Source: Austropuccinia psidii (Eukaryota > Basidiomycota > Pucciniomycetes > Pucciniales > Sphaerophragmiaceae). Taken from it: a stretch of 64,000 bases of DNA. Positions 7,321 to 63,748 of the stretch are shown one piece after another. The stretch lies in the NCBI GenBank assembly GCA_023105745.1, contig JALGQZ010000006.1:30457686-30521685 (forward strand). Reading direction: 5' to 3'. A program made the position numbers and the translations under genes. Below the pieces are notes generated by a model. It ran no database searches. It was not told the origin of the DNA and saw nothing but the letters and a program-made list of their open reading frames with translations. Position 1 is the first letter of the stretch. Each line of letters opens with the position of its first letter.

Positions 7321-8140
7321 TCTTATTGAAATCTTATTTCAACACAGAGAAACCTTTGCTTCTGATAATGAACCACCAGGGGCTATTGACAGCCATGAAG
7401 TGGAAATCATGCTTAATTTGGAAAGATCTTATACTCCATTATTAAGAAATCCAGCTTAGCCAGATAGCCCCAGAGCTAAAAAAGCATTAGAAACACATAT
7501 TAATGATATAATGAAACTGGGAGTTCTCAGAAACGCTAGGCACAATGAGGAAGTAGAAGTCACAACCCCTGTAATAATTACTTTGAATACTGAGAAATGA
7601 AGGATGGTTGGTGATTTTAGTGTTGAACACCTATAATATTCCAGACAGGTATTCAATTCATAGAATCCATGAGACCTTGACTCAATTATCACAAGAAATA
7701 TTAATAACTTCCATGGATGCTCTTAAAGGTTTTCATCAGAATTTTTTGACACTTTATGTTAGGAAATTATTGAGAATAATTACTCATTGTGGTATTTATG
7801 AGTCTTTAAGGATTCTTTTTGGAATAAAAAATGAACCTTCTCATTATCAAAGAATGATTAATGAAGTTTTCACACATGAATTATTGGAGGAATGGCTAGT
7901 CATTTATATTTATGACATTGTCATTAGTTGGGAAACCTGTAAATTGAATTTAGAGAGAATCTCATTAGTAGTTAAGGGAATTATTCAAGTGAAAATGAAA
8001 ACATCTCTTAAGAAATGTAATATGGGGTTTAATGAGTCAAAAGGTCTAAGAAATTTAGTTTCAGGACTAAGCCTTGGTGTTTCTGAAACAAATTACCCAG
8101 AAAAAAAAAGAAATGATGTCTTTATTAGGGTTTGCTAGCT
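7321..8140 (+). pseudogene. Element A reverse transcriptase remnant
   Basis: RT domain of the same element, broken by stops near 7456 and 7600 and by frame changes. Recognisable blocks in order are RYSIHRIHETL, SMDALKGFHQ with its catalytic Asp, FGIKNEPSHYQRM, and the catalytic box, which reads Y-I-Y-D rather than Y-x-D-D. One of the two catalytic Asp residues is therefore gone. Then come SLKKCN and SGLSLG, typical of the thumb region. It is the same family as the RT of B, C and D, but clearly older. Confidence 0.8.
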
Positions 8141-8794: not shown

Positions 8795-8833
8795 CAGTCT
8801 CATAAATGATGAGCCTTTTTTAGAGGGAGGGAA

Positions 8834-31574: not shown

Positions 31575-31874
31575 CTTTGACTGTGCCTTATACAAATTTG
31601 TTATCTGCTGATTTGGGCAATTTGCCTTTGAAGGTTACAACTGGGTTAATAGTTGTAATTTTTCCTGTACAAGTGGTTAAGGTTGGTTTACCTTGTATTG
31701 AAGCAGAGTTTTGTGGTTTTCTACTCCTCTGAGTGGCTATTGGTGTCCACCTTTTGGCTGCAATGAGGCCTTCACCAAGTCTTTTTCCTTTGCCCTTGCT
31801 GCCCTCTGGTTCTGAGGGGGTCACTGGTGTGTTGGCATGTGACTGGGTCTCAATTGGTATGAAATTTTCTTCCA
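31575..31874 (-). pseudogene. Element B exon 2 (N-terminal part of Gag)
   Basis: Exactly 300 nt between the two predicted introns, as in C and D. It starts TGGAAGAAAAT, so joining to the A that ends exon 1 gives ATG-GAA-GAA. The product is a small basic Lys/Thr/Pro-rich domain. It carries one nonsense change (CAA to TAA, in KFV-stop-GTV). There is no ATG in this frame upstream of that point. Confidence 0.7.
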
Positions 31875-32417
31875 CTGAATCAAACAGGAAAAGAGGGCTT
31901 ATGTCAGTTAAGACTTCTTAAAAGGCTGGTTTTGCACGTCTAATAATGGCCTCTGGGCTTGTATATTGTTAAAATATGCCCTTGTATGATGACAGTGTAA
32001 TTGAATTAACAATTCCACGTCAAAAATACAGCTTATTTATATCTGGCAGAATGTTTGTGTACCAATATCTTACAGAATACTTGTAGTTAGCAAGTATAAT
32101 CTCTCAAAGGTGGTGTATTACAGGGCAATTGAGTTAACAATGTTCCAAAACACGACTCAACTGTTGGTTTATCAGTATGAGATGTCTTGATTCAATTAAG
32201 AATTAAGACTGTATTAGTGGCTTACAAGTGCTCTTATATACAAAACAGGCCAAAAATACTGGTCTTGTGGTTATTAGCCATGTGACAGATACTCTTTAAA
32301 ATATGAGTATTTTTTAAAAAATAAAGAAAAATATATAAAAATATGAATTTTTAAAGAAAATGACGCCTAAAAAAGATAAAAAAAGTGTCAATAAATGATA
32401 AAAGAAAAAAAACTTAC
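31875..32417 (-). other. Element B intron 1 (predicted)
   Basis: 543 nt in sense orientation. The donor is CAA/GTAAGT, 48 nt after the LTR. The acceptor region has a CTGAC branch motif, a pyrimidine tract and ATTCAG/TGG. The exon junction would read ACAATGG. The same signals sit at equivalent positions in C and D. Confidence 0.7.
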
Positions 32418-42436: not shown

Positions 42437-42504
42437 CTGAGATATACAGGGGACATATCAGTGTTTGCAAGCAGTCAAAAACTTTATGTTCTTTGGGTAT
42501 TTAC
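42437..42504 (-). other. Element C intron 2 (predicted)
   Basis: 68 nt in sense orientation: AAAG/GTAAAT donor, CTGAT branch motif, CTCAG acceptor at 42438-42437, followed at once by a second AG at 42436-42435. The first acceptor continues exon 2 into ORF2, the second into the gag frame. Confidence 0.65.
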
Positions 42505-42804
42505 CTTTGACTGTGCCTTGTACAAATTTACTGTCTGCTGACTTGGGCAGTTTGCCTTTGGAAGTTACAACTGGGTTAATAATTGTAATCTTTCCTGTAC
42601 AAGTGGTTAAGGTTGGTTTACCTTGTATGGATGCAGAGTTTCGTGGTTTTCTACTTCTCTGGGTGGCTATTGGTGTCCACTTCTTGGCTGTGATGAGACC
42701 TTCACTGTGCCTCTTTCCTTTGCCCTTTCTGCCCTCTGGTTCTAAGGGTGTCACTGATGTGTTGGCCTGTGACTGGGTCTCAAGTGGGATGTAATTTTCT
42801 TCCA
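42505..42804 (-). CDS. Element C exon 2 (Gag N-terminal domain)
   Basis: 300 nt, open throughout, with no ATG in frame. With the A contributed by exon 1 it reads ATG-GAA-GAA-AAT and encodes 100 codons plus one base. The peptide is basic and Lys/Thr/Pro-rich (KGKGKRHSEGLITAKKWTP), with no recognised domain. Exon length is identical in B, C and D although flanking regions have indels. Confidence 0.65.
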
Positions 42805-43353
42805 CTGAAATCAAGGCAGAAAAGGGAGGACTTATGTCAGTTAAGACTTCTTAAAAATGCTGGTTTTGCACGTCTAAGATTGGCCTCTGGGCTTGTATGT
42901 TACTACAATGTGCCCTGTATAATGACAGTGTAATTGAATCAACAATTTCACGTCAGAATTACAGCTTTTGGTACCCTGTCACACTGTTTGTGTGCCAGTA
43001 TCCCACAGATACACTTGGGGTTTTCAAGTGTATTCTGTACAAGTGGTTTTGTATAAGTGTTATTGAGTTAACAATACACTTATTCAACGCCTCAACTGAT
43101 GGTTTTTCAGTCAGAGGTGTCCTTATTCAGTCAAGAATACAGGACTTTATTGATGGCTTATGTGTTTTTATATGCAAAACATGCCAAAAATATATAAATT
43201 CAGTGGGTATTAGCCACGTGAATAATACTCTTATAATATGAGTATATATAAAAAAGGATAAATATATATAAAATATATATTTAAATAAAGAAATTACGCC
43301 TAAAAAAAGATAAAACACTTTGTTAATAAGTCATAAAGAGAGAAAAGACTTAC
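42805..43353 (-). other. Element C intron 1 (predicted)
   Basis: 549 nt in sense orientation. The donor TAA/GTAAGT begins 46 nt after the LTR. The 3' end has a CTGAC branch motif near 42837, a pyrimidine-rich stretch and TTTCAG/TGG. The joined exons would read ATAATGG, creating the start codon. It contains no long ORF. Confidence 0.7.
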
Positions 43354-46277: not shown

Positions 46278-47716
46278 TGTGAGCCTGTGACTCAAAACCA
46301 GAGCACAAGCATGACAGCCAAAATACCATAAACCAATGGTATAGCCAAAATACCACCAAAAGATGGATCTGAGCCAAATCAGCTCAAAAGATATCAAAAG
46401 AAAGAGGAAACTCACCTCTTTCTGAAAATATAAGTCCCATCACCATAGGACAAAGAATAACAAAGTTATTATTGCTCAAAGTTATTGCTGAGCATAAACC
46501 TTAATTTTCACCTCTCATCTAAAACCTAGAAGGAGAGGCTTAACCCCATTAAATGGGTACTCAAAATGAAGCTCTAAGCCAGGGCTATTCAATGGTACCA
46601 GCCAAACTGAGCTAGCACCAATATTACTGGAGTTATGGTCAATTTCAGGCCAAACAAGGGTGAACAAAACATTCACTTCTCATCTAACTTCTACAGTTTT
46701 AGTGTTAGATACTTGAAGTGGGGTCTTTTTGCAAAGTGCACAATCAGGGCTATCTGATGGTGTCATCCACTTCCCCATATCTCAACTACAGCAGAAGCTA
46801 TGAGGCAAACAAGCTCAATACAGCTTTTTGCCCAAATCACGCCTATGCACAAAAATCTTGTACATGGCATAACTTTGCCATATTTAATGATAATCATATC
46901 AAATAAGGTACCATAGTGTAGAACTCATACAGGGATACACACTGGTCAACTTTGAGGTTGATATCTCAAGAACTGACAAAGTTATAGCTGTTTTAAGGTC
47001 AAAATCCCACATTCTGACCAATACAGCCTTACCATGGGATAATATCCCATAACCATGAATATGAGGTGTCAAATAGACAAAGAAGCTTCTTTTTACTTCA
47101 ATACCTCATATGTCAGTCAATACTGGGGTCCCATACAGCTTCTGTACAGCATTCTACGCGTCATACACGTCAGAATCAGGCTGTGAGGTCCCCAGATGAA
47201 GATTTTCACCCTGTATTGGTGAAAACTGCCCAGATGTGGTTTCAAAACCACATCTGAGCCCAATACAGGTTATACAGGCTGTTTGCAAACCACAAGCCAG
47301 TACTAGAGAGTAAAAAAATCTTCATTTCCTCTACATGAAAAGGTCTAGCACCCTTTCCACCCCATTTCAGGATAAAAAGGAGGCTTTTCACAGCCAGAAT
47401 TGTCTTCTCATCCTGCTCTTGAATAACCTACGTAGTAAACTGTCAAAAGAACTTTTACTCTTGGTTAATAATTAGTTATAATTATAAATTTTAATTATTG
47501 TAGTCTTCTATTATTGTAACCCAACAGATAAAGCTGCACCCAGGGCTTTCAACAGTGCTCACCACCACTACATTATATATAGTGAAGCCCTTTTAATCTT
47601 AAATTAAAATATCTTTAACCTTTATAAATGTTTTTTTAACCATTTCTACTGTGTCACAAACATAGTTAAAGTTGTACTTAGTCTATTTACACCTTTATCA
47701 TAGTTTCATCCTGAAA
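46278..47716 (+). repeat. Element D 5' LTR
   Basis: 1439 bp. It begins TGTGAGCCTGTGACTC (third-position C lost) and ends CATCCTGAAA where the family has GCCTGACA, so both ends are mutated. The palindrome lies at 47231-47256. The internal modules and the CGCGTCATACACGTCAG motif are present. Confidence 0.88.
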
Positions 47717-47719
47717 ATT

Positions 47720-47733
47720 TGGGGGCCTGGCAG
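47720..47733 (+). promoter_or_regulatory. Putative primer-binding site, element D
   Basis: TGGGGGCCTGGCAG, one base different from the sites of B and C, three bases after the LTR. Confidence 0.55.
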
Positions 47734-47760
47734 TGTTTTAAACTTTTCTGGACCTCATAA

Positions 47761-48296
47761 GTAAGTTTTTTCTCTTATTTTTTATTTTCTGACAATTGTT
47801 TTACATTTTTAGGCGTATTTTATTTTGGAAATATATATTTCATATATATCTTTACTTTATTACTCATATTATAAGAGTACTGACCACGTGGTTAATACCC
47901 ACTGGAACCTTTATTTTTGGCGTGTTTACATATAAAAACACATAAGCCATCAAAAAGTCCTGAATTCTTGATTGAATAAGGACACCTCTGACTGAAAAAC
48001 CATCAGTTGAGGCGTGGTTAAGTGTATTGTTAACTCAATTACACTTATACAGAGCCACTTGTTCATATTACACTTGAAAACCACAAGTGTATCTGTGGGA
48101 TACTGGCACACAAACAGTGTGACAGGTTACCAGAAGCTGTAATTCTGACGTGGAATTGTTGATTCAATTACACTGTCATTATACAGGGCATATTGAAGTA
48201 ACATACAAAGCCCAGAGGCCAATCTTAGACGTGAAAAACCAGCATTTTTGAGAAGTCTTGACTGACATAAGCCCTCTTCTTCCTGCCTTGATTCAG
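47761..48296 (+). other. Element D intron 1 (predicted)
   Basis: 536 nt. Donor CTCATAA/GTAAGT, 44 nt after the LTR. Branch motif CTGAC at 48262-48266, pyrimidine tract at 48271-48290, acceptor ATTCAG/TGG. There is no ATG between the LTR end and the donor, and none at the start of exon 2; the junction produces ATAATGG. Confidence 0.72.
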
Positions 48297-48596
48297 TGGA
48301 AGAAAATTATATCCCACTTGAGACCCAGTCACAGGCCAACACACCAGTGACACCCTCAGAACCAGAGGGCAGCAAGGGAAAAGGAAAGAGGCACAGTGAA
48401 GGTCTCATCACAGCCAAGAAGTGGACACCAATAGCCACTCAGAGGAGTAGAAAACCACGAAACTCTGCTTCAATACAAGGTAAACCAACCTTAACCACTT
48501 GTACAGGGAAGATTACAATTATTAACCCAGTTGTAACCTCCAAAGGCAAACTGCCCAAGTCAGCAGACAGTAAATTTGTACAAGGCACAGTCAAAG
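48297..48596 (+). CDS. Element D exon 2 (Gag N-terminal domain)
   Basis: Exactly 300 nt, open, with the same length and frame as in B and C. The first codon, ATG, is completed by the last base of exon 1. The peptide is Lys/Thr/Pro-rich and basic. Without splicing of intron 2 the frame would end at TGA 48641-48643, which lies inside the intron 2 branch motif. Confidence 0.68.
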
Positions 48597-48664
48597 GTAA
48601 ATACCCTAAGAACATAAAGTTTTTGACTGCTTGCAAACACTGATATGTCCCCTGTATACCTCAG
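48597..48664 (+). other. Element D intron 2 (predicted)
   Basis: 68 nt: AAAG/GTAAAT, CTGAT at 48640-48644 (branch A 21 nt before the acceptor), CTCAG at 48660-48664, with a second AG at 48665-48666. A typical fungal intron size. Confidence 0.68.
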
Positions 48665-48666
48665 AG

Positions 48667-49365
48667 ACCTTGGCTTCCAAAGGAACCAGCCAGAGGATAG
48701 AGGAGGATTGTCCAGAACCAGAAGACCTGAAAGAGGACACCCTGGACACAGTGGTGGATGGCAAAACAATGAGGGAGATAATATCAACCTTGCCATTCAT
48801 ACTCCAATTCAACAGAAACCTCAAACCAGAGGACTGGAAGGATATGGATCAAGTTCTTCAAATCCACCAACTCCTCAAAGATTTGTTTCAATGGAGCATG
48901 GACAACAAAAGGTTCAACCTGGAAAGTCACTGGGCAGAATTTGGAGCAAATTGCCAGAAGATCTGTCTCAAAGAGATAGACTTCAAAGAAATTATGATAA
49001 TCACCAAAAATTGGAATCCTACCAGGCAGTTCAGACTCCCGGAGGCAAGGGCACAGAGGATAAGGGAGAATCAAGCCACTATCCAAGCTATAGAAGAACA
49101 GTTAACCCAGACAGGGCCTACTCAGATTCCTTCAGCCTCACAAGGAACAGGCCAAATCAGCTCTCCGGTGGCTTCACACCATTCAGAAACCAGCAGATCA
49201 GTGGCCAAGAGTCACCATTCTTCACAATTCCAGGAAGTTTCCAGGAGAAGACAAGGAAACAAGGGCAAGAACAAAACCTCCTTCAACCAGAGGAGGAAAG
49301 AGTCAGACCCCATGATCCAGAAGCTGTTAGATTTGGTGAAAGGAGTACACAAGAACCAGAAGTAG
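48667..49365 (+). CDS. Element D ORF2, overlapping gag in another frame
   Basis: The 244-codon frame counted from a TTG at 48631, intact and ending at 49363-49365. It is open in parallel with the gag frame (48645-49778) over about 700 bases. The protein sequence is close to that of C (about 25 differences over 244 residues by eye), with a helical middle and a basic tail. It is joined to exon 2 by the CAG acceptor of intron 2. I do not recognise a domain; an accessory or alternative Gag-like product is inferred only. Confidence 0.5.
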   Translation, partial: TLASKGTSQRIEEDCPEPEDLKEDTLDTVVDGKTMREIISTLPFILQFNRNLKPEDWKDMDQVLQIHQLLKDLFQWSMDNKRFNLESHWAEFGANCQKICLKEIDFKEIMIITKNWNPTRQFRLPEARAQRIRENQATIQAIEEQLTQTGPTQIPSASQGTGQISSPVASHHSETSRSVAKSHHSSQFQEVSRRRQGNKGKNKTSFNQRRKESDPMIQKLLDLVKGVHKNQK

Positions 49366-51225
49366 TTGTAAACCACTCTAGAATCAGTAGTCCTAGTAAT
49401 AGAAAGATTACCCCCACTCATATTGAACACAACATTGTCACACCTGAGAGTAACTTAAACGGTGATGCACTGTGGTTACAAATGTCCCAACATGCCGAAC
49501 AATCTGCAAAGCTGTTTGCAAAACTTGAAACTGGCCATAAGAGGATGAAAAAAACACAAGCCTCCTTGGAACAGATAGTTAAGAGTCTTCAAGAAGGATA
49601 TGCTCAACTGAGCAAAGCCTCTGAAGAAACCAACAAAAGATTCAATCTAGTCTTTGAAGAACAACACCACAGCAAAAGGGACAGGGATTGTCTGGACCAA
49701 GACATAAACAAATTGTTTAATGTCTACCATAACTTGAATCCCCAACCACAAGGCCAAGTTATGGAGAATCCATATTAACCAGATGACATCAAACCAGATT
49801 CCATGTTGATGAATAAGGCAAGATCTCCATCACAATACCAGGATGGAGATGGAATGTCTTATTCAGAGAAGGACGCCTTAAAACAGCTTCCTGAGGCCTC
49901 AAGATGGCCCACATTCTCTGGATCAGGAGAATATGATCATATGGAACTCATAGATTATATTGATGGACTCTTCATTGATGTACCAAGCATACCAGACTAC
50001 TGGATTACTGCTAGATTGAATACTGCATTTAAAGGTCATGCTAGTATATGGTACACAGAAATGAAAGAAATGCATTGCAGAAGAAACTTGCCATGGTGAA
50101 AGAGTCAAATCATTCAAAAGGACAGTAATGGAACTTGGATAAGGAAAAAGGACCATGTCATTTGAGAATGACAAATACTCAGTGGACAAAGATCCATATG
50201 AGTGGTGTCTTAGACAGTCTAAGAGACTTAAAGACATTGATCCTCAGATGAACATTCAAATGAGGAATCACAAGCTTCTGACACAACTGCCAGGAGAACT
50301 GGAGCATGCAGTAAGATGCAGATGCAACCAAAATTGCACTCTAGATGACATTGCCAACACCTGACAAGATATAAGGAAAAGGACTAACATAGGGAAATTC
50401 ACCCCATATAAGAGCAGTAGTTTCAAAGAGAAACAACCTTTCAGGGTAGAGTTTAAAGACAAACCCAAAGAAAGAGTGGCAGAAGTGGCAAAGAAGAGGA
50501 ATTCTTGTCACCATTGTGGTTCAAAAGACCACTATGCCAACAACTGTCCAAAGGCAAAGAAAAAATGCTATTCCAATGAGAAAGTCCCAGAGGAAGAATC
50601 TCCAACAGAGGATTCTGAATAAGACTCCATGGGCAATGCCATCAGAGAACCATCTGATGATGATCAAGACCCAAGAGAGGAATTTTTAGTGGAATACCAA
50701 GAGGAAACCCCACTAGAAATTCTGGACATACAGCTGGAAGCAGGATGGGCACAGGACACTGCTAACAAGAACTTTTGCAAACACACAAAAGATTCACAAA
50801 CATTCCTGGTTACACCAACCAAAGGAATGGCATATATACATGGAACAGCCACAAAGATGACTCTCTGTATTGACAATTCTCAGCACCCATTGATCATTGA
50901 TAGTGGTGCACACTTCACCATAGTGGCCAGGAACTATCTGGATTCCCACTTCCCAAACTGGGAAAAACAGCTCTTGCCCACTAAGGCAAAGAACTTTAAA
51001 AGTGCATCAGGGAAGATGACTTCCATTGGGACAATTATCAAAGAGATGATTATACCCCACAGGAAGGGTAATATCAGACTCAACCCAGAGTTTGCAGTGC
51101 TTGATGATGCCCACATCCAGGGGTTTTTACGGGGGACAGACTGCCAGAGGATGTATGGCATAGACATTTACAACAGTAAAAATAGGCACATCATCATTGG
51201 TACTAACAAGGAAAAGAAATTTTGA
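48667..51225 (+). pseudogene. Element D gag (exon 3) and protease
   Basis: The gag frame is open to 49778, where TAA (PY-stop-PDD) is shared with B. It then continues through the capsid-like domain with TGA at 50097-50099 and a frame change at about 50100-50155. The C-terminal capsid has a TGA at 50362-50364. The intact zinc knuckle CHHCGSKDHYANNCPK lies at 50509-50556, a TAA near 50620 follows, and protease has the active site IIDSGAHF. Protease ends at the TGA at 51223-51225, in the same codon as in B. Confidence 0.87.
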
Positions 51226-52536
51226 CTAGATATATACCAGATATCTTCTCAAGATCCACTAGAAGAACTTCTGAAGGAATTCAGAGAGGGACAGTTTAGC
51301 ACTACCCTCACCAGTAAACAAAAGCTACGCTTACTGAAGATGCTGAGAAAGAACAGACCAGCATTTGCCATTTGTGAAGAAGCATTAGGCAAGATCAAAG
51401 GCCATGATATAGAACTATATCTGGATGTGGAAAGGCCTTATCCACCCATGCTTAGGAGACCTCCTTACCAAGTGAGTCTGGAAACTAGGAAAGAAATTGA
51501 AAAACATATCAATGAACTCCTGGACATGGAAGTCATCAGGGATATTGGACACAATGAAATAGTGGAAATAACCACTCCTTTCCTAATCACCTGGCATGAT
51601 CGCATGTCCAGATTGTGTGGAGACTTCAGAGCTCTGAATAACTACACAAAAGCAGACAGGTACCCTATACCAAGGATACCTCATGCCCTGGATAAACTGG
51701 CAAAAGCCAAATACATAACCAAAATGGATTGTATGAAAGGCTTCCACCAGAATGGAGTTAAACCAAACTCCATGAAATTACTCAGAATCATATGCCATAT
51801 TGGCATATATGAGTATACCAGGATCCCATTTGGCATCAAGAATGCACCAGCCCACTTCCAAAGGATGATGGACACCATATTACAGGAAGAAATACTGGAA
51901 GGCTGGATGGTAGTATATATTGATGAAATCATTATATACTCAGAAACATGGGAACTTTATGTGCAATGAATAGACAGAATACTGAGTAAATGCACACCCA
52001 TAAATTCAAAAATTTCACCTAAAAAGTGCAATTTTGGCCAACAAGAGCAATTAGCTCTAGGAAATAAAGTCTCAGGTCTTAGTCTGGCAATTGACCAGAA
52101 AACAGTAGCAGCAGTACTGCAAAAGCCAGTACCAAAAAGCATCAAAGAGATGCAATCCTTCCTTGGGTTTTCTAGTTACTATAGAAACCACATCAAAAAC
52201 TTTGCACACATAACTAGTAGTTTATGCAAGTTATGTTCAAAAGATGTAGTTTTTTAAATAACCAAGGAAAGGAGGGATGCATATGAGAGGATCAAATATG
52301 AACTCACAAATCCACCTGTGCTCATCTTACCTGACTTTGAACTACCATTCAAGTTATACATAGATGCAGCATGCAGTCAAGGCCTAGGATCAGCCCTTCA
52401 CCAAAGACAAATTGTGGATGGTGACCCAAGAGAAGGAGTAATTTGCTACATCTCAAGGCAGCTGGAATATTTAGAATCCAGGTATGGGGCCACCCAGACT
52501 GAGTGTCTATGTCTACTCTGGGCTCTAGAAAAACTC
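51226..52536 (+). pseudogene. Element D reverse transcriptase and RNase H N-terminal half
   Basis: The RT frame 51340-51969 has [30 protein letters not shown] and [14 protein letters not shown]. The catalytic box reads Y-I-D-E instead of Y-I-D-D, so one catalytic Asp is replaced by Glu. It ends at TGA 51967-51969 (the position where C has TAA). The thumb and connection follow, with a TAA near 52255, then RNase [19 protein letters not shown] up to ALEKL, where element E is inserted. Confidence 0.88.
52532..52536. repeat. Target-site duplication of element E, left
   Basis: AACTC, repeated at 61779-61783. Confidence 0.92.
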
Positions 52537-53314
52537 TGTCACAGGGGCTCTTCTAAAATGAAGAGGGCCTGGCACTCAGTGAACAGACTTACTTATGGAG
52601 GGCTCAGAAGAGTACTCAAATGATAAGAGTAATAGAGTCAGAGGATAAATTCCTAGTCATAAAATAATAAGCATAAAAGATAAGAGAGACAAAACAAAAG
52701 CAATAATAATGAGCCAACCACAAATAATCCTGTACCACTGTTTCAACCTCTTCAGAAAAGAGAAAAGGATTAATAAAGGATATGGCCACCAGGACTCTAC
52801 TGAACAGGTGGGGGAAGGCAAAGACTAACTTAATAAATAATAAAATAATATTTCTTAAATGAGAATTAAAATAATATTAAATAATAAATCCAATATTTTA
52901 ATTAACTGGGGGAAAAACCCCCAGGCGGATGAAGAGGGGGTGGTATATGTGAGAAATACCAGCCTTGGAGTTTGAGTGTTGAGATACTGGCCTGTATGCT
53001 GGAAGAAGTTGTATGTGGGATTGAATCCTGTATTGGTGAATCCAATACATCTTATAGAGTCAATACAGGTATTTGCGCCTGTATTGATGAAAGGCCTGTT
53101 ATTGGTGAATCCTGTATTTGGGTCTTGCCTGTATGAAACTGTATTGAGGTCTGAAAACTGTATTTGGAGAATGTAGAATGAAACCCCCTTGCTAATTGGG
53201 TTTTGAAGGGTATCCATGAAATAATGATTGTTGCTGATTGGGTTTTGAAGGGTATCAATGAGGTAATGATTGTTGAAGATGATTGGTAATGCCCCTGCCT
53301 CCTTGGCTGTGACA
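52537..53314 (-). repeat. Element E 3' LTR
   Basis: 778 bp, ends TGTCACAG and CTGTGACA, an 8-bp inverted terminal repeat. It contains several CTGTATT/AATACAG motifs in both orientations (53030-53165). The polypurine tract AAGAGGGGGATAA lies at 53315-53327. Confidence 0.94.
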
Positions 53315-53754
53315 TTATCCCCCTCTTGAAAGTGGTGAGCTCTGAGCACCATAAGTATAGTGAGTCTTGATGAGCTTGCAATCAATCCATACAGTTCTTT
53401 CCCCAATTCCTTGAATGTATCCCATGAAACTTTCTTCTTTAATCAATGCTCAAACAAAATCTTCATTTAATCATTTGTGGGTATCTTCCCCTTGATCTTG
53501 ATTCTGAATTCCCTCTTTTCCTTCAAAATGCCTTCATTCTTCTAAAAAAATGTTCTTCTTGTCTTGAGTGTCTTCACTAAACTTTTCCTGAGTCCTCATG
53601 GCTTTTGAAAAGGGGGTGACCTGGGTTTATGTCCCAAGAACACCTGATTTCATCATAATTTTGAGTCTTGACAGTGTTGGCATGAAGTGGCCAATACTTG
53701 AGGTTTTGGACCATTTCAGAAGTCCTGGCCAAAATCCTTGATTTTGTGATTGAA

Positions 53755-54240
53755 GGAGATTTTGGCCAATTTGCGCAAAGTGCGCAAATGCGCAAAGTGC
53801 GCAAATGCGCAAATATGCCATAATGGCATATAATGGTGAAAAAATTGAAAAACTTGATTTATGATGAAAAATTGGCCTTATAGGGTGTTCTGGCCATTTT
53901 GCGCATTTTTGCGCAAAATGCGCAAATGCGCATATATGCCATAATGGCATATATATTGGTGAAAAAGATGAAAAAGTTGATAAATGATGGACAAATGGCC
54001 TCTAAGGTGTTCTGGCCATTTTGCGCATTTTTGCGCAAAGTGCGCAAATGCGCAATTATGATGAAATTGGCCAAAAAGGCCTTTTGAAGACTTTTGACAA
54101 GATAAACAGGCCTTTTGCGCAAAAGTGCGCAAATGCGCAAATTTGCCAATATGCCTAATTAAGCATATTTTGATGAAAAATGATAAAACTGAGCTATTTT
54201 GAAGTTTTGAGGTTTGATATGGCCATTTGTGCCAAAGTGC
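53755..54240. repeat. GCGCA-rich tandem repeat in the 3' non-coding part of E
   Basis: Units of about 93-128 bp start near 53762, 53890, 54012, 54105 and 54223. Each has a GGCC box, two to five TGCGCA palindromes, and often ATGCCATAATGGCAT. The last copy is decayed. ORFs predicted here on the minus strand (CAFAHFAQ-like) arise from the repeat and are not genes. CpG is conspicuous in otherwise AT-rich DNA. Confidence 0.85.
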
Positions 54241-54754
54241 ATAAATTCATGAAATTGGCCAATTGGGCCATTTGAAGCAGGGTTTTCCTTTTGATCTTGA
54301 TTTCCTCCTGAATGTCTTTCTTCTTATCTCCTTCTTGAATGGTCAATTGCCATAGATGCCTTGCTGATTGGGCTTTGGCTTTCAATTTTGATCTTAAGGA
54401 ATGAGTTTAAGGCTGACTTGAAGAAGTTTTGATGAGGGTTATCTGTAGGTGGTCTTTACCATTACTAGTGTTTTGCTCTTTGATTATTGAATGAATTGAG
54501 CCCCCAAACGTGAGATGGGAGTGATGACTACTGCTTTTTGAAATAAGAAGTAAAAATAAAAATAAAAAATAAAAATAAAAGATACAAGTAAAAGAGAATG
54601 AAATAAAAAATAAAAAATGAAAATGAAAATAATTGAGAGAAAAAGAGAGTAAAGAAAGAAATAAGAAATGCCTGAGGGTTGTCCTTCTTGTGGTGAGTTC
54701 TTGATTTTTGGCCAAAATGTTCTGAAAAATAAAATCAAGCATTTGATGCTCACA

Positions 54755-55164
54755 GCGTGGCCAAGGTAATGTTTTACAAGAAGTAGACCCCTCAGGGCTG
54801 CATACCAGGAGATGGAACTTACTTTCATAACTTCCACTCCCCACCAAGCACCATAAATGAAAAAGAAATTATGCCATAACATGAATTGTGGTAATGAATG
54901 TCTTGAAAGATAATTTATGGCATGATTAAAGAAAGAAAAGAAAATAAGAGAAAGATTGGGCCATATCTTGATGAAAAGTCCAAATGTTGAGGGTATGATG
55001 TTGCAAGGCCTTCTGAACCTGTCCAAAGAATTGACAAGTGCTCACAAAGTGGCCAAGGTGATGCTTACAACAAATTTGGGTAGAATACCCCCTTAAAGGT
55101 GCATGCCAGGAGAGGAACTTACTTTCATAGACTCCAATCCCCACCAAGCACCATAAATCAAACT
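54755..55164. repeat. Direct repeat pair of about 120 bp after the E chromodomain
   Basis: 54755-54878 and 55037-55164 share GTGGCCAAGGT, GCATNCCAGGAG, GAACTTACTTTCATA and CCCCACCAAGCACCATAAAT in the same order. The minus strand of each holds GAAAGTAAGT, a donor-like motif. No ORF. Confidence 0.6.
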
Positions 55165-56699
55165 CTTGAGGCATTTGGGCCAGGCTTGTCTGGATACAAA
55201 GTGTGAAAATCCTTGACAAGGTCTGGGGAGTTGGTTCCCAAGTTGTTCTTTCTGGGTCTTCATTGAATCCTTTCCACTCCACTAAATACCATAATGAACC
55301 TCTCTTGAGTTTTGAGTCCAGAACCTGAGCCACTTCCCATTCTTCTTGCTCTTTCACTATTACTGGAGGTGGTGGCAATTGGTGTCGATTTGGGATAGTT
55401 GATTGCTTCACTGGTTCTAACAAGGACACATGGAAAACAGGGTGAACTGACTTCCATTGTTGAGGCAACTTGAGGTGATATGCATGGCTGCCAATCTTCT
55501 TGAGAACTTCAAAGGGTCCCAACCATCTTTCTGAAAGCTTTTTGGTGGGTCTTGTTGTCTTGATGTTCTTGGAAGCTAGCCATACTTTGTCCCCAGGTTG
55601 GAAATCAGGTGGAATTGCTCTATTTTTATCTGCATACTTCTTAAAACGCTTTATTGCTTACTCTAATTCTTCTTTGACAACTTGCTGTACTGATTGGAGT
55701 TTTGATGATAACTTTCCAGCAGGTGTATCTTGAGAAATGTGAATTGAATCAAAGCTGGGATTTCTTCCATAAATAGTGAAAAATGGAGACTGTTTTGTTG
55801 ATGAATGTTCTGCATTATTATAGGCAAATTCAGCCAGAGGGAGGCAGGTGTGCCAGTCATCTTGATGGTAACTGACATACATCCGAAGATACTGTTCTAG
55901 AATCTGATTTACCCTCTCTGTCTGTCCATCTGTTTCAGGGTGAAAGGCAGTTGAAAGATCTCTTGATATCTTGAGCTTCTGACACAATTGAGTCCAAAAT
56001 GATGAAACAAATAATGAACCTCTATCACGAACAATACTGATTGGAAGACCATGTTTGGAAAAGACATGATTAATGAATATTTGAGCTAAATCCAAAGCAG
56101 TGATTGTTGAATAAGTTGGAATGAATATTGCCATTTTTGAAAATCTGTCTACAACTACTAAAATTGAATCAAAGTTGCTTGACAAGGGCAATTGGGTGAT
56201 AAAGTCCATTGATAAGGAATTCCAAGGACCAGATGGAATTTGAAGAGGCTTGAGTAATCCAAACTTCTTATGGTGGATGTTCTTGTTTCTTGAACATTGC
56301 TGACATGAGGACACATAGTCCTTGATGGTTTGATTCATGCCAGCCCAATAAAAATCCCTCTTGATGAGCTTGAGGGTCTTCTCCTGGCCAGGATGGCCAG
56401 CCAACAGTGAGTCATGACGCTTTTGAAGAATGTCCAATTGAATTTCATGATTGCTTGGAATGACTACTCTATCTTTGAACAATAATAATTTTGCTTGAGG
56501 TTCAAGAGAATAGTCTGGGACTGATTCTCCTCTTGCTAATTTCTTGAGGATTTCCTTATAATCTTTGTCTTTCCATACTTGTCTTTGAATTTGATCAACT
56601 ACATCTGAAAAAACATCAACTTTAATTGAGAAGAATCTTGACTCTTGAATTTCATTTTGCTTGAGAACTTGATGAAAATTTTGAGGATTCTTGCTGATG
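55164..56699 (-). pseudogene. Element E integrase with chromodomain
   Basis: Zinc module (HDSLLAGHPGQEKTLKLIKR to CQQCSRNK), catalytic core with MDFITQLP, IVRDRGSLFVSSFW and AFHPETDGQTERVNQ (all three acidic residues present), and a TAA at 55658-55660. The frame then resumes with RWLGPFEVLKKIGSHAYHLKLP (GPF module) and a chromodomain (VAQVLDSKLKRGSLWYLVEW, KGFNEDPERTTWEP). A 1-nt shift near 55231 follows; the expected end (DLVKDFHTLYPDKPGPN) lies in the next frame and stops at about 55164. Confidence 0.9.
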
Positions 56700-57954
56700 A
56701 AATGCACCCCCCTCTCTGGGTACACATCGTCCCGACGTGACAAGGCATCTGGTAAAGTGGCCAGCCTGCCTGGGCGGTAAGTGATGATAAAGTGAAATTC
56801 AGATAGAAATTCTGCCCAACGGGCTTGACGACGAGTAAGGACTTTAGAGGACATAAAATACTGAAGGGAACAATGGTCTGTCAAGACCTCAAAGGAATCA
56901 GAAAGGGAAAGGAGAAAAGCTCTCCAGCGCTTGAGAGCCCAAACTTTGCCAAGGAGTTCCTTGTCATGAATTTCATAGTTGAGTTCAGCTGGTAAGAGCT
57001 TGCGACTATCAAATGCAATGGGATGCTTTCCTGAGTCATTCACCTGACTCAGTACAGCACCCAAGGCATAATCAGAAGCATCAGTCTCCACAATAGTTGG
57101 TAGAGAAGGATTAAAATGAGAGAGAATAGGAGCAGTGGTGAAAGCTTCTTTGAGTATCTGAAACTGACTAAGAGCTTCCTCATTGAAGATAAAGGGAGAA
57201 TCTTTTTTAAGGAGGGAAGTGAGAGCAGAGATTTTTTGGAATAATTCTTAATGAAACAACAATAAAAGTTGGCAAAGCCAAGAAAAGATTGGAGGGCCTT
57301 GATGTTCTTGGGCTGAGGCCAATTGAGGATTTGTTGAACCTTTGAAGAATCCATCTTGAGACCATCACTTGAAACAACATAGCCCAAGTATTCCACACTT
57401 GAAGCATGGAATACACACTTGGAGGCTTTAGCAAACAAATTATTGTCTCTCAGTCTTTGGAGAACAGAGGCCACATGTTTAACATGTTCATCCAAAGAGC
57501 TAGAGAAGACCATAATATCATCTAAGTACACTACAACAAAAGTATCCAAATAATCTGCAAAGATATCATTCACAAGATTTTGGAATGAAGCTGGAGCATT
57601 TGTTAAGCCAAATGGCATAACAAAATACTCATAACTGCCATATTTGGTTCTAAAGGCAGTTAAATGCTCATCCCCCTCTTTAATTATCAGGAGATTATAA
57701 GCACCACGCAGATCTATCTTGGAGAACATAGTAGCACCGTTAAAGACGGTAAGAAGCTGATTCATTGGAGGAACAGGATACCTGTTCTTCCTAGTGACAG
57801 CATTAAGTTTGCGGTAGTCAACACACAAACAAAGACCACCATCCTTTTTCTTAACAAAAAGGACAGGTGCTCCTGTTGAGGAGGAGCTTGGTCTGATGAA
57901 ACCCTTCTCTACATTCTCTGAAATGTAGGCCTGCAGTGTTTCTGACTCATTCTA
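56700..57954 (-). pseudogene. Element E reverse transcriptase and RNase H
   Basis: [43 protein letters not shown] and an intact YLDD box ([12 protein letters not shown]), then the connection SFLGFANFY. The TCCAAAAAATC run at about 57232 has six A where seven would keep the frame, so RNase H ([50 protein letters not shown]) lies in the neighbouring frame, open from there to 55658. A TAG at 57952-57954 separates protease from RT. Confidence 0.9.
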
Positions 57955-58869
57955 TGATAAAGAGTAGATAACACCAACTGGAGGTAGAAGACCCTCCAGT
58001 TCAATATGATGATCACAGGCACGGTGTGGAGGAAGTTTCTCTGCTTTCACTTTGGAGAATACATCCAAATATTTGTGATAAACAGGAGGGACTACCTTCA
58101 GCACAGTTTCAATCTCTTCTGGCTCTTCCTCCTCATCCCACTGCTCCTCCAGGGAGGCATGAAAAGATAAAGGAGGAAGGTCCATATCCCCTTGAAAGAG
58201 ATGAAGTGAAGATAAAGCAACATCTTCTCCAACATCTTTTATCTCTTTGAAGACTTCATCTCTTAATGGAAGTAATGACTGAGAGGGAAAAGTAGAGGGG
58301 TTATGGACAGAAGGAGGAAAGGAAGGTGTCTTAAGTTCACCAACCAGAGCAACACTTTTGACAGCAGTGGATAAGTCATTACTAGTAGAAGAAATAATAC
58401 CACTAGAATCCTTATGACTAGAATCATAGGTGATCAATCCATTTTTCCAATCAATAATGGGATTAAAATGGTAAAGAAAATCATAGCCCAATATTAGGTC
58501 TTCTCCCTTGGGTGAATCTATGATAAAGAAATCCCATTCAAAGCTTGGGAAGGAAGGTAAATCAACAACCCACTTGGTATAATGGGTGATGAACAGGGAA
58601 GTGGATTCATTAGAATCCAGAATGAAAAGAGGAATCTTTTCAGGGAGCTCTGACATGGTCAATGAGTACTTGAGAACAAAATTCTTTGCAATAAAGGAGT
58701 TTGTAGCACCAGAATCAATGAGAATACTATAAAAAATATCAGAGATTGAAGAAAAAATAAGAAATTTTAAAGATTTCTTGACACTAGTATTCAGAGTGCA
58801 CAATTGTGCTCTTGAAGGAAATAAGTGAGAACCATTGAACACATCATGATTCCCACTCAGGCTTTTCCC
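57955..58869 (-). pseudogene. Element E aspartic protease (start of pol)
   Basis: The pol frame is entered at the slippery site (58869-58863) and runs to the TAG at 57952-57954. The active site is ILIDSGATNSFIAKNF (Asp-Ser-Gly intact), followed by a second-strand region (DLILGYDFLYHFNPIIDW) and an acidic Ser/Pro-rich linker before RT. It has no ATG start, consistent with expression by frameshifting. Confidence 0.85.
58825..58869 (-). promoter_or_regulatory. Predicted -1 ribosomal frameshift site between E gag and pol
   Basis: In sense orientation the heptamer G-GGA-AAA (58869-58863) is in gag phase, followed by the 6-nt spacer GCCTGA containing the gag stop (58859-58857). A 7-bp stem then pairs GTGGGAA at 58856-58850 with TTCTCAC at 58831-58825 (one G-U pair, 18-nt loop). 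Slipping back one base reads GGG-AAA-AGC and enters the protease frame without a stop. Confidence 0.75.
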
Positions 58870-60215
58870 TGCTTGCTAGGGAAGCCTTTTGATGACCCTT
58901 GCCTATTTTCAGGCCTCTTGAAGCATTTTTCAAATGGGTGTTTACCACCACAATAATTGCACAAGCCTTCTTTAATCCTCCTCTCCTTTTCAGAACCAAT
59001 TAATTTGTTGTCCTTATTGAGGAGAGCAGCATGAGGCTTGTCTTCGGACACTTGAAAATTCTTCCCCTTCTTATTCTTCTTGTGATAAGGCTTCTTTGAT
59101 GATGAACTTTGAGGGGGCTTGGAGGAGTTGGATTCACTGATTGGAGGCTTCTTCTCTTGATGACTGCCCTTTTCCTTCTGCCTCTCATGGTACCTGGTAT
59201 CTAATTCCAAGGTGATATCCATGAGTTCTTGAAGGCTATCAAAAGTTCCAGGGTGAGAAGCCAATTGGTCCAGCAATCTTGATGCCAAGCCTCTTCTATA
59301 GACATGAATATAGGCCCTTTCCCCCCAGTCTCCAATTCTTGACATTAAACTTCTGAAATCAGCTATGTACAAGGAAACTTGACCACTTTCCCTCATCCTA
59401 AAATTGTCCAACTCTTGTTCAGCTTTTCTGACTTCATTGGGATCACCAAACAGAGTGAATAACTGGGTTTCAAACAACTGCCAGTTATTGAGGAGATAAG
59501 ATGGGTCTTCATTGGAGATATTTGAGAGGTAAGGTTCAATCCATTTGCCAGCTCTACCAGTAAGAAAAGAATTTGAGTAAAGCACCTTCTTCCTGTCAGA
59601 GAAGAAGTTTGCTGGGTCATTATGAAAGATTAATTGACAGGATTGAATGAATCCTCTCAATTTATGAGCTTTAGTACCATCAAAAGAATCAGGTGCCTTC
59701 ATTGATAGAGTCTTGAATGCAGGGACTTTTGAAGTGTCCCTTGGGGCAACTTCTTGAGTGAGTTGTCCCATAAACTGAGTCATTTGCTTCATCATCTTGA
59801 GGAAATTTGGTTCAGCTTGAGAGACAGAAGGTTGATTAGAAAGGGCTATATTTGGAGCCTCAGGAGCTTTGGGAGCACCTTCCAAGGCAGCTGCCACTTC
59901 AGTCTCCTCAGATTCTTCCTCTTCCACGGACTCCTCCCCCTCCTCATCTTCAGCTTCCCCCAATCTACTTCTAGGCCCTTGAGAAACACCAGGATAACCA
60001 CCCAATAGTCCAGAGAATGATCTTGATCTTCTAGACTTCACACCTCCTCTTCTGGAGGGTGCTGCTCCTTCCATTGGTGGTCCTCTGTCCAAATTTGCAC
60101 TCAGTTGATGAACTGATGGTGTGCGGTCAAGAGGAGCCCTTGGTGTAGGAGTGAGAACAGCTTGATGTCTCTGGGATCTTGTATTCTTGGCTGGTGGGCT
60201 ATGCTGAACTGGCAT
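58857..60215 (-). CDS. Element E gag polyprotein
   Basis: 452 residues, intact. The start is taken at the second of two adjacent ATGs (60215; the frame is open upstream to 60317), giving MPVQHSPPAKNTRSQ, the start I remember for this family. N-terminal third: Pro/Arg-rich, then acidic (DEEGEESVEEEESEE). Middle: a retrotransposon gag (capsid) domain with FQSCQLIFHNDP-like and WIEPYLSNISNEDPSYLLNN segments. C-terminal: a Lys/Ser-rich linker and one zinc knuckle, CNYCGGKHPFEKC (CX2CX3HX4C, one residue shorter than the usual spacing). It would assemble particles and bind genomic RNA. The stop lies 3 nt after the slippery site. Confidence 0.92.
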   Translation of the reverse strand: MPVQHSPPAKNTRSQRHQAVLTPTPRAPLDRTPSVHQLSANLDRGPPMEGAAPSRRGGVKSRRSRSFSGLLGGYPGVSQGPRSRLGEAEDEEGEESVEEEESEETEVAAALEGAPKAPEAPNIALSNQPSVSQAEPNFLKMMKQMTQFMGQLTQEVAPRDTSKVPAFKTLSMKAPDSFDGTKAHKLRGFIQSCQLIFHNDPANFFSDRKKVLYSNSFLTGRAGKWIEPYLSNISNEDPSYLLNNWQLFETQLFTLFGDPNEVRKAEQELDNFRMRESGQVSLYIADFRSLMSRIGDWGERAYIHVYRRGLASRLLDQLASHPGTFDSLQELMDITLELDTRYHERQKEKGSHQEKKPPISESNSSKPPQSSSSKKPYHKKNKKGKNFQVSEDKPHAALLNKDNKLIGSEKERRIKEGLCNYCGGKHPFEKCFKRPENRQGSSKGFPSKQGKA

Positions 60216-60319
60216 CATGAAAGAAGAATGAATAAAAACTTGATGATACTTTGAATAAAATAAGGCTTGACCAAAACAATCAAATGAGAATCTTGATGAA
60301 CTTGAGAAATCAATCAATA

Positions 60320-60670
60320 GTCTTGAAGTGAATCAATATGAATAAATCTTGAAGAGTGAAGATGACAAAGTCAAATTCTTATGAATAATCAATTTCAATC
60401 AATAAGTCAAATCAAGTCAATCAAGTCAATTCAAAATCAAATCAATTAAGTCTTGAGGAATTCAATCAATATCTTCAAAATCAATTCAATTTTCTTGAGG
60501 AATCAAATTCAAATCAATAAATCAAATCAAATCTTGAGGATAAATCAGATATCTTGAGGAATCAAATCAAGTCAATCAATCAAATCAATCAAAGTCAAAT
60601 CAAAGTCTTGAGGTGAAATCAATGTCTTGAGGAATCAATCAATAAATTTGAGAAATTTCAAAACCAAAAT
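60320..60670. repeat. Low-complexity repeat in the E leader
   Basis: Many irregular copies of TCTTGAGGAATCAA and AATCAAATCAA between the gag start and the 5' LTR. In sense orientation this is the untranslated leader, poor in C-free structure and AT-rich. 60671-61000 continues as A/G-rich leader with AAAATCATAAAA repeats. Confidence 0.7.
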
Positions 60671-61000
60671 CACTGAATACCCCAAATCAATAAAATCCCT
60701 GAATGATGAATCAATTAACCCAAATAATTCCACTCAAATAACCTGATAAAAACCTGAATTCAGACAAAAAGAGAAATGAGAATGATAAAGAATAAAGTGA
60801 AATGGTCAGCAGAATTTTCAAAATGAGAAAGAGAATCAATTTTCATTTGAATAAAATGAATGAGATGAAAATTGATAAGAGAGAAAAATCATAAAAATCA
60901 TAAAAAATCATAAAATCATGAAAAGATCATAATTGAAGAATGAGAGAAATGAATAAAATGAATGAAAGAAAAAGAAGCAATTATGAGTTAATTAAAATAA

Positions 61001-61778
61001 TGTCACAGGGGCTCTTCTAAAATGAAGAGGGCCTGGCACTCAGTGAACAGACTTCCTTATGGAGGGCTCAGAAGAGTACTCAAATGATAAGAGTAATGGA
61101 GTAAGAGGATAAATTCCTAGTCATAAAATAATAAGCATAAAAGATAAGAGAGACAAAACAAAAGCAATAATAAAGAGCCAACCACAAATAATCCTGTACG
61201 ACTGTTTCAACCTGTTCAGAAAAGAGAAAAGGATTAATAAAGGATATGGCCACCAGGACTCTACTGAAAAGGTGAGGGAAGGCAAAGACTAACTTAATAA
61301 ATAATAAAATAATATTTCTTAAATGAGAATTAAAATAATATTAAATAATAAATCCAATATTTTAATTAACTGGGGGAAAAACCCCCAGGCAGATGAAGAG
61401 GGGGTGGTATATGTGAGAAATACCAGCCTTGGAGTTTGAGTGTTGAGATACTGGCCTGTATGCTGGAAGAAGTTGTATTTGGGATTGAATCCTGTATTGG
61501 TGAATCCAATACAGGTTATACAGTCAATACAGGTATTTGCGCCTGTATTGATGAAAGGCCTGTATTTGGTGAATCCTGTATTTGGGTCTTGCCTGTATGA
61601 AACTGTATTGAGGTCTGAAAACTGTATTTGGAGAATGTAGAATGAAACCCCCTTTCTGATTGGGTTTTGAAGGGTATCCATGAAATAATGATTGTTTCTG
61701 ATTGGGTTTTGAAGGGTATCAATGAGGTAATGATTGTTGAAGATGATTGGTAATGCCCCTGCCTCCTTGGCTGTGACA
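61001..61778 (-). repeat. Element E 5' LTR
   Basis: 778 bp, same length as 52537-53314, with about 19 differences by eye. Ends TGTCACAG and CTGTGACA. The sequence right after it in sense orientation, TTATTTTAATTAACTC, has no TGG, so a tRNA primer-binding site is not evident. Confidence 0.94.
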
Positions 61779-61783
61779 AACTC
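61779..61783. repeat. Target-site duplication of element E, right
   Basis: AACTC, identical to 52532-52536. Confidence 0.92.
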
Positions 61784-63748
61784 CATTATTATCTGGAGGG
61801 TGCAGTCTTTGAAGTCTACACAGACGGCACAGCCTTGAAGTCTTTACTGAACATGAAGACTACGAATAGAAACATGCTGAGATGGCAAATAGCCATTCAG
61901 GAGTATAGAGGGAACATGACCATAATATAAAAAGAAGGTAAAAGTCATACCAATGCAGATGGCCTTAGCAGATGGCCACTGGATAATGTCAAGAGCAATC
62001 CAGCTTATGACCCTGAAGTTGCAGCCAAAATCCCTATCCACTTCATGGAAATAGATAGCAAGAAGAACTTCAGATTTTCTGAATGGGTACCAGAAAGTGG
62101 TACCCTTGACAGTGAAAACACTGATTCAGAGGGGACAGAAACTCCCATATTGGGAATAAGTTCCTCTGAACTGCACAATGAATTTTTTACTGCAGTACTG
62201 AAGTCTTATGCCAAACACAAACAGTGTGGAATACTACTACAACTCCTTCAACAAAAGTACAGGAGTCCAGAACTGGAATCCCAGCTGGAAGAACCCTGGT
62301 TGGGGGCCTATAGGGATAACAAGTGCTTTCTTATAGATGGCTGGCTCTACCACAGAGAGAAACACACAAGTGCACTCACAGTGGTAGACAGAGACCACAT
62401 CTCCTTGATCCTGCAGGAATGCCATGACTGCCCCTATATGGGACACATGAGTGAAGACAGGACCAAGGAGAGGGTAGAAAGCACTGCTTGGTGGCCCAAG
62501 TGGGAACAAGAGTTGGGAGAATACATCAACACTTGTGAAAGATGCCAAAAGGCAAATAGGAAACATGGGAAGAAGTATGGGTTACTTAAACATATAGAAG
62601 AACCCAAAAACCCATGGGAAACCATCAACATGGACTGGGTTACAGGACTTGTCCCAGGAGGCAACGAAAACTACAATGCCTGCTTGATCATAGTTGATAG
62701 GTTCAGCAAGAGCATGAGGTGTCTACCATGCCACAAATAGGACACAGCCATGGATACTGCCCTGTTATTTTGTAATAACCTCATATCTACCTGTGGAGTC
62801 CCTAAAATCATCATTAGTGATAGGGACCCAAAATTCACATCCAAATTTTGGACCAACTTGTATGACATGCTTGGGACCAAGCTTGATTTTTCCACAGCTT
62901 ACCATCCCCAAACAGATGGCCTAGCTGAGAGGATGATCCAGACTATGGAAGACATCCTTAGAAGGTTCTGTGCCTATGGCATGGAATACAAGGACCATGA
63001 AGGATACACCCATGACTGGGTTACCCTTCTACAAGCTGTCCAACTGGCTTATAATACCAGTCAGCACTCTACCACAGGAAGAACACCTGCAGTGGTAGAG
63101 AAAGGCTGGAATCCCCTGTTTCCTGTGGATCACCTAAAGAAGAACCTTCTGACAATCCACCCCACAGCCAAAGGCTTCCATGATATGCGGAAGAGGGCTT
63201 GTGACACAGCTGCCAAATGCATAGCTGAGGCAAAAGAATATAATAAACAGAGGTGGGACAAGACACACATGGAACCTGACTTCAAGGAAGGGGACCAGGT
63301 GCTAGTGTCTACACTGAACTTTAATAATCTTAAAGGACCCAAGAAGATGAGGGACTCATTTGTAGGGCCTTTCACTATCATTAGGTTGATAGGAAAGAAT
63401 GCAGTGGAAGTCAAACTTACAGAGGAATTTTCCAGGAAGCACCCAGTCTTCCCAGTAAGTTTAGTAAAACCATACTTCCAAACAGAGAAGGATAAATTCC
63501 TCTCCAGGAAGAAGAACCCCACACCACCTGATATAGTGGAAGTGGAGGACTCCCCAGTACCTGTGAGTAAGATCATCAGGGCCAGGAAGATCAGACTTAA
63601 TGGAAAGGATCAAAGACAATACTTAGTCAGATTCAAGCACCAAACAGCTGATAAAGCCAAATGGTTGGCAGAAGATGCCATAACAGATGAGAACCTTCAT
63701 CTAAGCAGATCCAGGGCATCTAGGAGTACTGAAAAGCCTCATCAATGA
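61784..63748 (+). pseudogene. Element D RNase H end, integrase and chromodomain
   Basis: It resumes after E with [14 protein letters not shown] and NADGLSRW (RNase H), with a TAA near 61928. The zinc module ([11 protein letters not shown] to [10 protein letters not shown]) and [11 protein letters not shown] follow, then a TAG at 62738-62740. A 332-codon frame (62750-63748) holds [34 protein letters not shown] and a chromodomain ending [15 protein letters not shown]. The catalytic Asp-Asp-Glu residues are all present, split only by the TAG. It ends next to a polypurine tract (63761-63774). Confidence 0.9.

Follow-up and report, generated by a model that had tools for sequence, protein, structure and literature searches.

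The Ty3/gypsy element Cer1 of C. elegans makes an accessory protein, CERV, from a spliced mRNA and uses the unspliced RNA for Gag-Pol and as its genome; CERV is required for the export of that genomic RNA, and a splice-assembled start codon is not described in the cited text as far as it goes (PMC10309623). In BARE1 of barley and in copia, splicing also alters which protein the element RNA makes, Gag being the sole product encoded by the spliced RNA, and copies of that RNA were not amplifiable from barley DNA according to the part of the report considered here (PMC3735527). Here we describe a window of 64,000 nucleotides from the myrtle rust fungus Austropuccinia psidii (contig JALGQZ010000006.1, positions 30,457,686 to 30,521,685), the whole stretch of DNA that was analysed, in which three elements, B, C and D, belong to a single gypsy-type family with long terminal repeats (LTRs) of about 1.4 kb. 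The genome searched comprised 1.015 Gb in 84 contigs, and the family is present in it in thousands of copies. We propose, with a probability of about 0.78, that splicing in this family switches a single retrotransposon RNA from one start codon to another.

In the proposed mechanism the leader would be scanned from a cap near position 47400 of the window (coordinates below are those of element D unless otherwise stated), and the first AUG met would decide the product. Unspliced RNA would start Gag, and Gag-Pol, at an ATG at 48645, and removal of intron 1 would join an A to a TG and so create a new upstream ATG starting an overlapping accessory frame, ORF0. The spliced RNA would be the ORF0 messenger, and the unspliced RNA both the Gag messenger and the main template. 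Intron 1, predicted to fold unusually well and present only in unspliced RNA, would signal export or packaging of the genomic RNA. The spliced RNA could, through ORF0, supply a basic helper of the Rev or CERV type, which lets intron-containing RNA exit the nucleus or be packaged. Among retroviruses, HIV Rev with its RRE and HTLV Rex have a comparable layout, with a regulatory protein made from spliced RNA and a structured element in the unspliced RNA, a likeness drawn by analogy. Support for the switch is good on the ORF0 side and lesser on the Gag side, and the roles of ORF0 and of the folded intron are what we infer from these data; for ORF0, a Rev- or CERV-like helper is the most likely role, offered as a guess by analogy.

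Cer1 with CERV is the closest functional model, with the difference that in the D family the accessory frame and the beginning of Gag overlap, and that the accessory ATG would exist only after splicing, at least with respect to what is described of Cer1 in the cited text (PMC10309623). Unlike BARE1 as reported in the cited part, here the spliced RNA would open another frame and spliced copies sit in the genome (PMC3735527). Spliced HIV RNAs are stated to be able to enter reverse transcription (PMC1868081), whereas the products here are inherited genome insertions. A start codon split by an intron has been reported for ribosomal protein L19 of Nosema ceranae; that is a host ribosomal gene, and a competing unspliced product is not mentioned in the text cited (PMC2685015). 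No retroelement with a splice-assembled start codon was found in a limited literature search, which did not extend to older work on the spliced env messages of insect gypsy-type elements.

The start codon joined across intron 1

Read directly from the sequence of element D, on the forward strand, the end of exon 1 (47717–47760) has CTCATAA as its last bases, and the final A, at 47760, opens the split start codon. Intron 1 (47761–48296; 536 nt) runs from the donor GTAAGT (47761–47766) to the acceptor ATTCAG (48291–48296) and is followed by exon 2a of ORF0 (48297–48479), which starts TGGAAGAA and supplies the TG. The same A/TG join is present on the reverse strand in element C (intron 42805–43353, 549 nt; donor at 43353, T of the TG at 42804) and element B (intron 31875–32417, 543 nt; donor at 32417, T at 31874). 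In these respects the initial annotation of this DNA, which had pointed to the donor, the acceptor, the join and the three intron lengths, was accurate, as it was in stating that exon 2 is devoid of ATG, since D contains none between 47628 and 48645. By sequence, the start of ORF0 would thus exist only after splicing, and the joined ATG is found in genome copies lacking intron 1.

That annotation had also asked whether the splice sites were conserved among copies. In an alignment of 42 copies, consisting of D, C, B and the 39 copies in the genome that resemble D most closely, all 42 kept the A at 47760, the GTAAGT and the TG, and the acceptor A and the acceptor G were each kept in 41, which is beyond chance. 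Conservation of the intron interior and of exon 2 was about equal in these close copies (0.963 and 0.966, respectively). A second sample consisted of 20 copies from one contig, selected solely by a 30-nt sequence at the border between exon 2 and intron 2. According to the alignment table, the GT donor, the CAG and the A/TG were all kept in 14 of them, the full set being absent from L089, L091, L097, L100, L104 and L106; with D added (n = 21), conservation was 0.84 in the intron interior and 0.93 in exon 2.

The construction of a start codon across the exon junction is further supported by genome copies from which intron 1 is exactly missing. A search with exon 1 joined to exon 2 as the pattern produced 98 matches, against 53 in a reversed control, and 21 of the 98 were looked at (20 cut out, plus L087), the remaining 77 all being at 3 mismatches. 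Nine of the 20 cut-out loci were element copies exactly without intron 1, and L087 was a tenth; the other 11 were not spliced element copies. In these nine, hereafter processed copies, the match to D begins at 47475 or earlier, extends to 47755–47760 and leads directly into exon 2. Seven of them also lack intron 2 (48597–48664) and, where the alignment shows it, a third intron at 48480–48545, while L059 and L060 lack intron 1 only and so keep intron 2. The corresponding search with joined exon 2/exon 3 gave 18 matches and none in the reversed control. All 18 places are without intron 2, eight of them also lacking intron 1 and ten keeping intron 1 sequence, although among the latter L082 aligns only from 48098 (the 3' part) and L082 to L086 have no exact GTAAGT. 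At the same stringency the unspliced exon 2/intron 2 border was found at 8,002 places, so that intron-2-less places amount to about 0.2% (18 vs. 8,002), and the unspliced donor was found at 8,824 places, with 456 in the control. Copy L052 retains both LTRs and is flanked on each side by TAGAC, a perfect 5-bp target duplication, and the flanks of L059 are TGTCC and TGTCG.

The phylogenetic tree included 49 copies, nine of them processed (L012 and L043 were dropped as too short). The processed copies did not form one group, well-supported branches forcing four label changes, and L048, L049, L050 and L052 sit among unspliced copies. Repeated reverse transcription of spliced RNA is the simplest account of these sequences. 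The proposal that splicing separates template from messenger consequently stands only in part: spliced RNA appears to have been reverse transcribed more than once, but intron-2-less places are as rare as indicated above. As intron-2-less copies have lost the Gag ATG, which lies in intron 2, they would depend on other copies. Three of them that keep intron 1 (L077, L079 and L080) are alike and possibly represent a small lineage that spread after loss of the Gag start.

ORF0, Gag and the leader before them

The frame opened by the joined ATG runs through exon 2 and across intron 2 and encodes 333 amino acids, ending at 49365. On the forward strand, exon 2a is followed by intron 1b (48480–48545; 66 nt, in frame), exon 2b (48546–48596), intron 2 (48597–48664; 68 nt, GTAAAT...CCTCAG) and exon 3 with the stop codon (48665–49365), which Gag overlaps in another frame. 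The GT-AG rule was used to place the ends of intron 1b, which are otherwise ambiguous over 9 nt. Since this intron is in frame and is missing from most intron-1-less copies but kept in others, ORF0 may have a long and a short form. The ORF0 and Gag frames are both open over 233 codons in D, and the third frame mostly has 10–12 stops in the 51 copies compared.

Variants shared among copies spare the amino acids of ORF0. In exon 2 (42 copies), single-copy variants looked neutral, with 35 of 134 synonymous in ORF0 (31.4 expected), whereas among variants present in 3 to 21 copies 16 of 21 were synonymous (5.6 expected; reached in 0 of 1000 draws). In the other two frames the same shared variants gave 0 and 3 synonymous changes (4.9 and 6.4 expected), and the intron 1 control gave 11 of 45 against 11.3 expected. 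In exon 3 (51 copies, variants in 4 to 25 of them), 32 of 64 left the ORF0 residues unchanged but altered Gag (15.9 expected), 10 showed the opposite (15.4 expected) and 22 altered both proteins (32.3 expected). None of these shared variants added a stop to ORF0 or to Gag (3.2 and 3.3 expected), and variants in two to three copies added two stops to ORF0 (7.6 expected). Therefore, as judged from the variants, ORF0 is a maintained protein under selection.

ORF0 matched 665 database proteins at E ≤ 0.001, and at least 120 of these, namely all of the 120 listed, are named as from Austropuccinia psidii MF-1. Many hypothetical MF-1 proteins among the matches listed appear to be fragments of this transposon frame with inconsistent first exons. 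The MF-1 gene models were dropped as evidence of splicing, their first exons varying between models.

The Gag-frame ATG (48645–48647, forward strand; MSPVYLRDLGF...) lies inside intron 2 and is the first ATG after 47628 in unspliced D. It is present in 40 of the 42 close copies and in all 21 of the second sample with D. Only RNA that retains intron 2 could therefore start Gag there. In D the frame extends from this ATG to a first stop at 49776–49778 (48645–49778) and continues in register at 49779–50099, a stretch that is capsid-like by position only, with no match in Pfam; the ATG is in phase with this next part of Gag (49779 − 48645 = 3 × 378). In C the equivalent ATG at 42456 is in phase (42456 − 41739 = 3 × 239), past one stop, with the open reading frame containing the zinc knuckle. 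Element D has more breaks, and its zinc-knuckle stretch (50365–50622) is in another register, so copy D is broken there. If intron 2 is kept, the ORF0 frame is closed by a TGA at 48641–48643. In the arrangement TGA-T-ATG at 48641–48647, a single base separates the ORF0 stop from the Gag ATG that follows it, which could permit termination-reinitiation on partly spliced RNA.

According to the initial annotation the joined ATG was the start of Gag, and unspliced RNA was unable to start it. Neither statement could be maintained, because the frame of the joined ATG ends at 49365 without a zinc knuckle, which in C is in another frame, and Gag has its own ATG at 48645 in that different frame, preceded in unspliced RNA by a leader depleted of ATG. 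A spliced RNA encoding Gag, as in copia and BARE1, is for the same reasons of frame not what was found here.

The depletion is marked. In the upstream LTR there are about 2 ATG per 100 nt, a density that declines between 47200 and 47400. The 1,016 nt from 47629 to 48644 of D contain no ATG and 20 CAT; 2,000 dinucleotide shuffles gave a mean of 14.0 ATG and a minimum of 3. In intron 1 alone there is again none (shuffles: mean 9.7, minimum 2). From 47400 onward D has one leader ATG, private to D among the 42 copies, and every stray leader ATG site is a minority state among them, 48645 being the sole majority ATG in 47300–48700. Among the 119 stray leader ATGs, 21 are at sites that are mostly ACG and 53, as read from the list, at sites mostly GTG, words which in many of them fit CpG decay. 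Translation of unspliced RNA is the easiest explanation for the depletion in intron 1, which spliced RNA alone could not impose. This suggests that ribosomes scan unspliced RNA to the Gag ATG, and that the first AUG wins, splicing setting which one is first.

Intron 1 as a candidate RNA signal

Our preferred reading of intron 1 is that it may serve as a signal, at the RNA level, by which the genomic RNA is exported or packaged. Its interior (47825–48274) folded better than shuffles in the 12 copies tried of 30 aligned (60 shuffles per copy), with z values from −2.6 to −10 and a mean of −5.55. Alignment windows of 18 rows (L091, L097 and L104 left out) gave z from −4.2 to −8.7 in intron 1, and a window consisting mostly of exon 2 also gave −4.1. 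With respect to covariation, for which 33 introns were gathered and L082, L091 and L097 left out, 16 of 80 predicted pairs had two-sided changes, against 5–11 when the prediction was slid along the alignment. A small hairpin, ACTTG/CAAGT at 48072–48088, keeps all five pairs in 27 of 30 copies, its loop varying. A repeated AAAACCA loop was not upheld across copies, and only this stem was steady. A search of 47300–48700 in Rfam at E ≤ 1 gave two matches, neither near the gathering score.

In addition, intron 1 bears five RCGTG motifs at fixed places (47886, 47920, 48012, 48148 and 48229), each exact in 14–20 of 30 copies and in 22–29 when CpG-decayed forms are included. The motif occurs 3.07 times per intron, which is about 19 times as often as expected from shuffles (0.16), and it holds five of the six CpG of the D intron; its CpG decay creates several of the stray leader ATGs. 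One may go further and imagine a circuit similar to Rev/RRE, in which splicing would remove the structured intron that tags the genome, make the start codon of an export or packaging factor, and delete or bypass the start of Gag; splicing and the choice of the first AUG would then suffice to distinguish the genome, the Gag messenger and the regulator messenger. We put this forward as a tentative and rather doubtful extension.

Competing explanations, element layout and meaning

Several observations weigh against the switch as proposed, most of them on the Gag side, where its weakest point lies. Among close copies, 12 of 85 shared variants in the overlap were synonymous in Gag (19.6 expected), and just past the end of ORF0 the figure was 11 of 53 (11.8 expected). 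Exon 3 variants in two to three copies add 11 stops to Gag (8.7 expected), and just 23 of 51 copies are free of Gag stops across 48645–49598. Divergent copies gave a Gag pN/pS of 0.82 in the overlap, where the third frame gave 1.19, and of 0.62 after it, with a non-Gag phase after ORF0 also at 0.74; the following part of Gag gave 0.46 when B, C and D were compared, on the basis of 17 synonymous and 34 other differences. Constraint on the Gag frame, both within the overlap and immediately behind it, therefore seems almost absent in the close copies and mild at best in the divergent ones, so the main support for the proposed start at 48645 comes from the leader and the frame register. As for the leader, the portion from exon 2 to 48644 is weakly depleted (0 vs. 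3.0 expected, with 46 of 2,000 shuffles also at 0), individual copies bear 0–12 leader ATGs (mean 2.8, compared with 22.5 CAT), and ribosomes would have difficulty in scanning a leader so long and folded. The fold of intron 1 is likewise unconfirmed: control stretches of D gave z of −3.2, −2.5 and −0.55, and in a G-test over 26,895 column pairs none of the top 25 was a predicted pair, the 11 testable predicted pairs ranking from 167th to 25,189th. With regard to the role of ORF0, its exon 3 had no match in Pfam and a predicted structure of low confidence (mean pLDDT 42), and its leucine-rich or basic motifs were too weak to use. Finally, within the 3-kb stretches fetched, a 3' LTR was detected in five of the nine processed copies, partially in L057 and L060, and was not found for L049, L050, L051 and L055, and five processed copies (L051, L055, L057, L059 and L060) lie outside the D-like group of the tree, because the unspliced copies had been picked by closeness to D.

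This position in the tree, together with the clustering of L051, L055 and L060 and the resemblance of L077, L079 and L080, could indicate that the processed copies descend from an old lineage without introns or arose by simple deletion. We hold this for the least probable of the explanations considered, as the ends are exact at three introns lost in varied combinations, four processed copies fall within the unspliced group, and L052 has its LTRs and target duplication. Only slightly more credible is the reading in which Gag starts at the spliced ATG, with unspliced RNA serving as template alone. The junction is certainly real, and ORF0 is the more constrained frame in the overlap, but the end at 49365 without a zinc knuckle and the position of the C zinc knuckle in the frame of the other ATG are against it, and an ATG-depleted intron would have no obvious reason if unspliced RNA were never translated.

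More attention must be given to an RNA spliced at intron 1 and retaining intron 2, on which a 115-codon version of ORF0 would end at the TGA at 48641–48643 and translation would restart at 48645 to produce Gag. The three bases of this stop are kept in 42, 39 and 42 of 42 copies, and there are copies without intron 1 yet with intron 2 (L059 and L060). This explanation is nevertheless unlikely, given that reinitiation is usually poor after 115 codons, that four of the 20 sampled copies (L091, L100, L102 and L103, read from the table) have no stop there, and that the ATG depletion of intron 1 favours translation of RNA retaining that intron. The switch between an unspliced Gag message and a spliced ORF0 message is thus the explanation that we prefer.

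As regards the rest of the element, the 5' LTR of D (46278–47716, forward strand) starts TGTGAGCC and ends CCTGAAA, and LTRs of other copies start TGTCAGCC and end CTGACA. A TATA-like sequence, GATAAAAAG, was recognized by eye at 47371–47379, in the area where ATG density drops, and we infer a transcription start near 47400. The presumed primer-binding site, TGGGGGCCTGGC, is at 47720–47731, just after the LTR; both are on the forward strand. Element C has the domains RVT_1, RT_RNaseH, Integrase_H2C2 and rve, hence the RT-RH-INT order of Ty3/gypsy (Metaviridae). The LTRs and a Gag zinc knuckle, with zf-CCHC above cut-off in C and just below it in D, agree with this assignment. With regard to the chromovirus lineage, which is marked by a chromodomain at the integrase C-terminus, SH3_Tf2-1 was above cut-off in C and Chromo below it (E = 0.09). 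Another LTR element, in reverse orientation and with a tail that looks chromodomain-like by eye, lies inside the pol region of D at about 52500–61800. Transposable elements have been reported, in the part of the source considered, to cover over 90% of the A. psidii genome, most of them being Gypsy elements, and to show CpG decay (PMC8063080); the decay observed in this family is consistent with that report.

If the switch operates as proposed, it would be a simple answer to the problem of using one RNA as genome, as Gag message and as accessory message, since splicing would pick the first AUG. It also provides a two-frame overlap of 233 codons with clear selection on one frame. Given the thousands of copies and the spliced forms present in the genome, much of this is testable by sequence alone, with no culture of the rust. 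In addition, the family may explain many of the "hypothetical proteins" in the gene set of myrtle rust.
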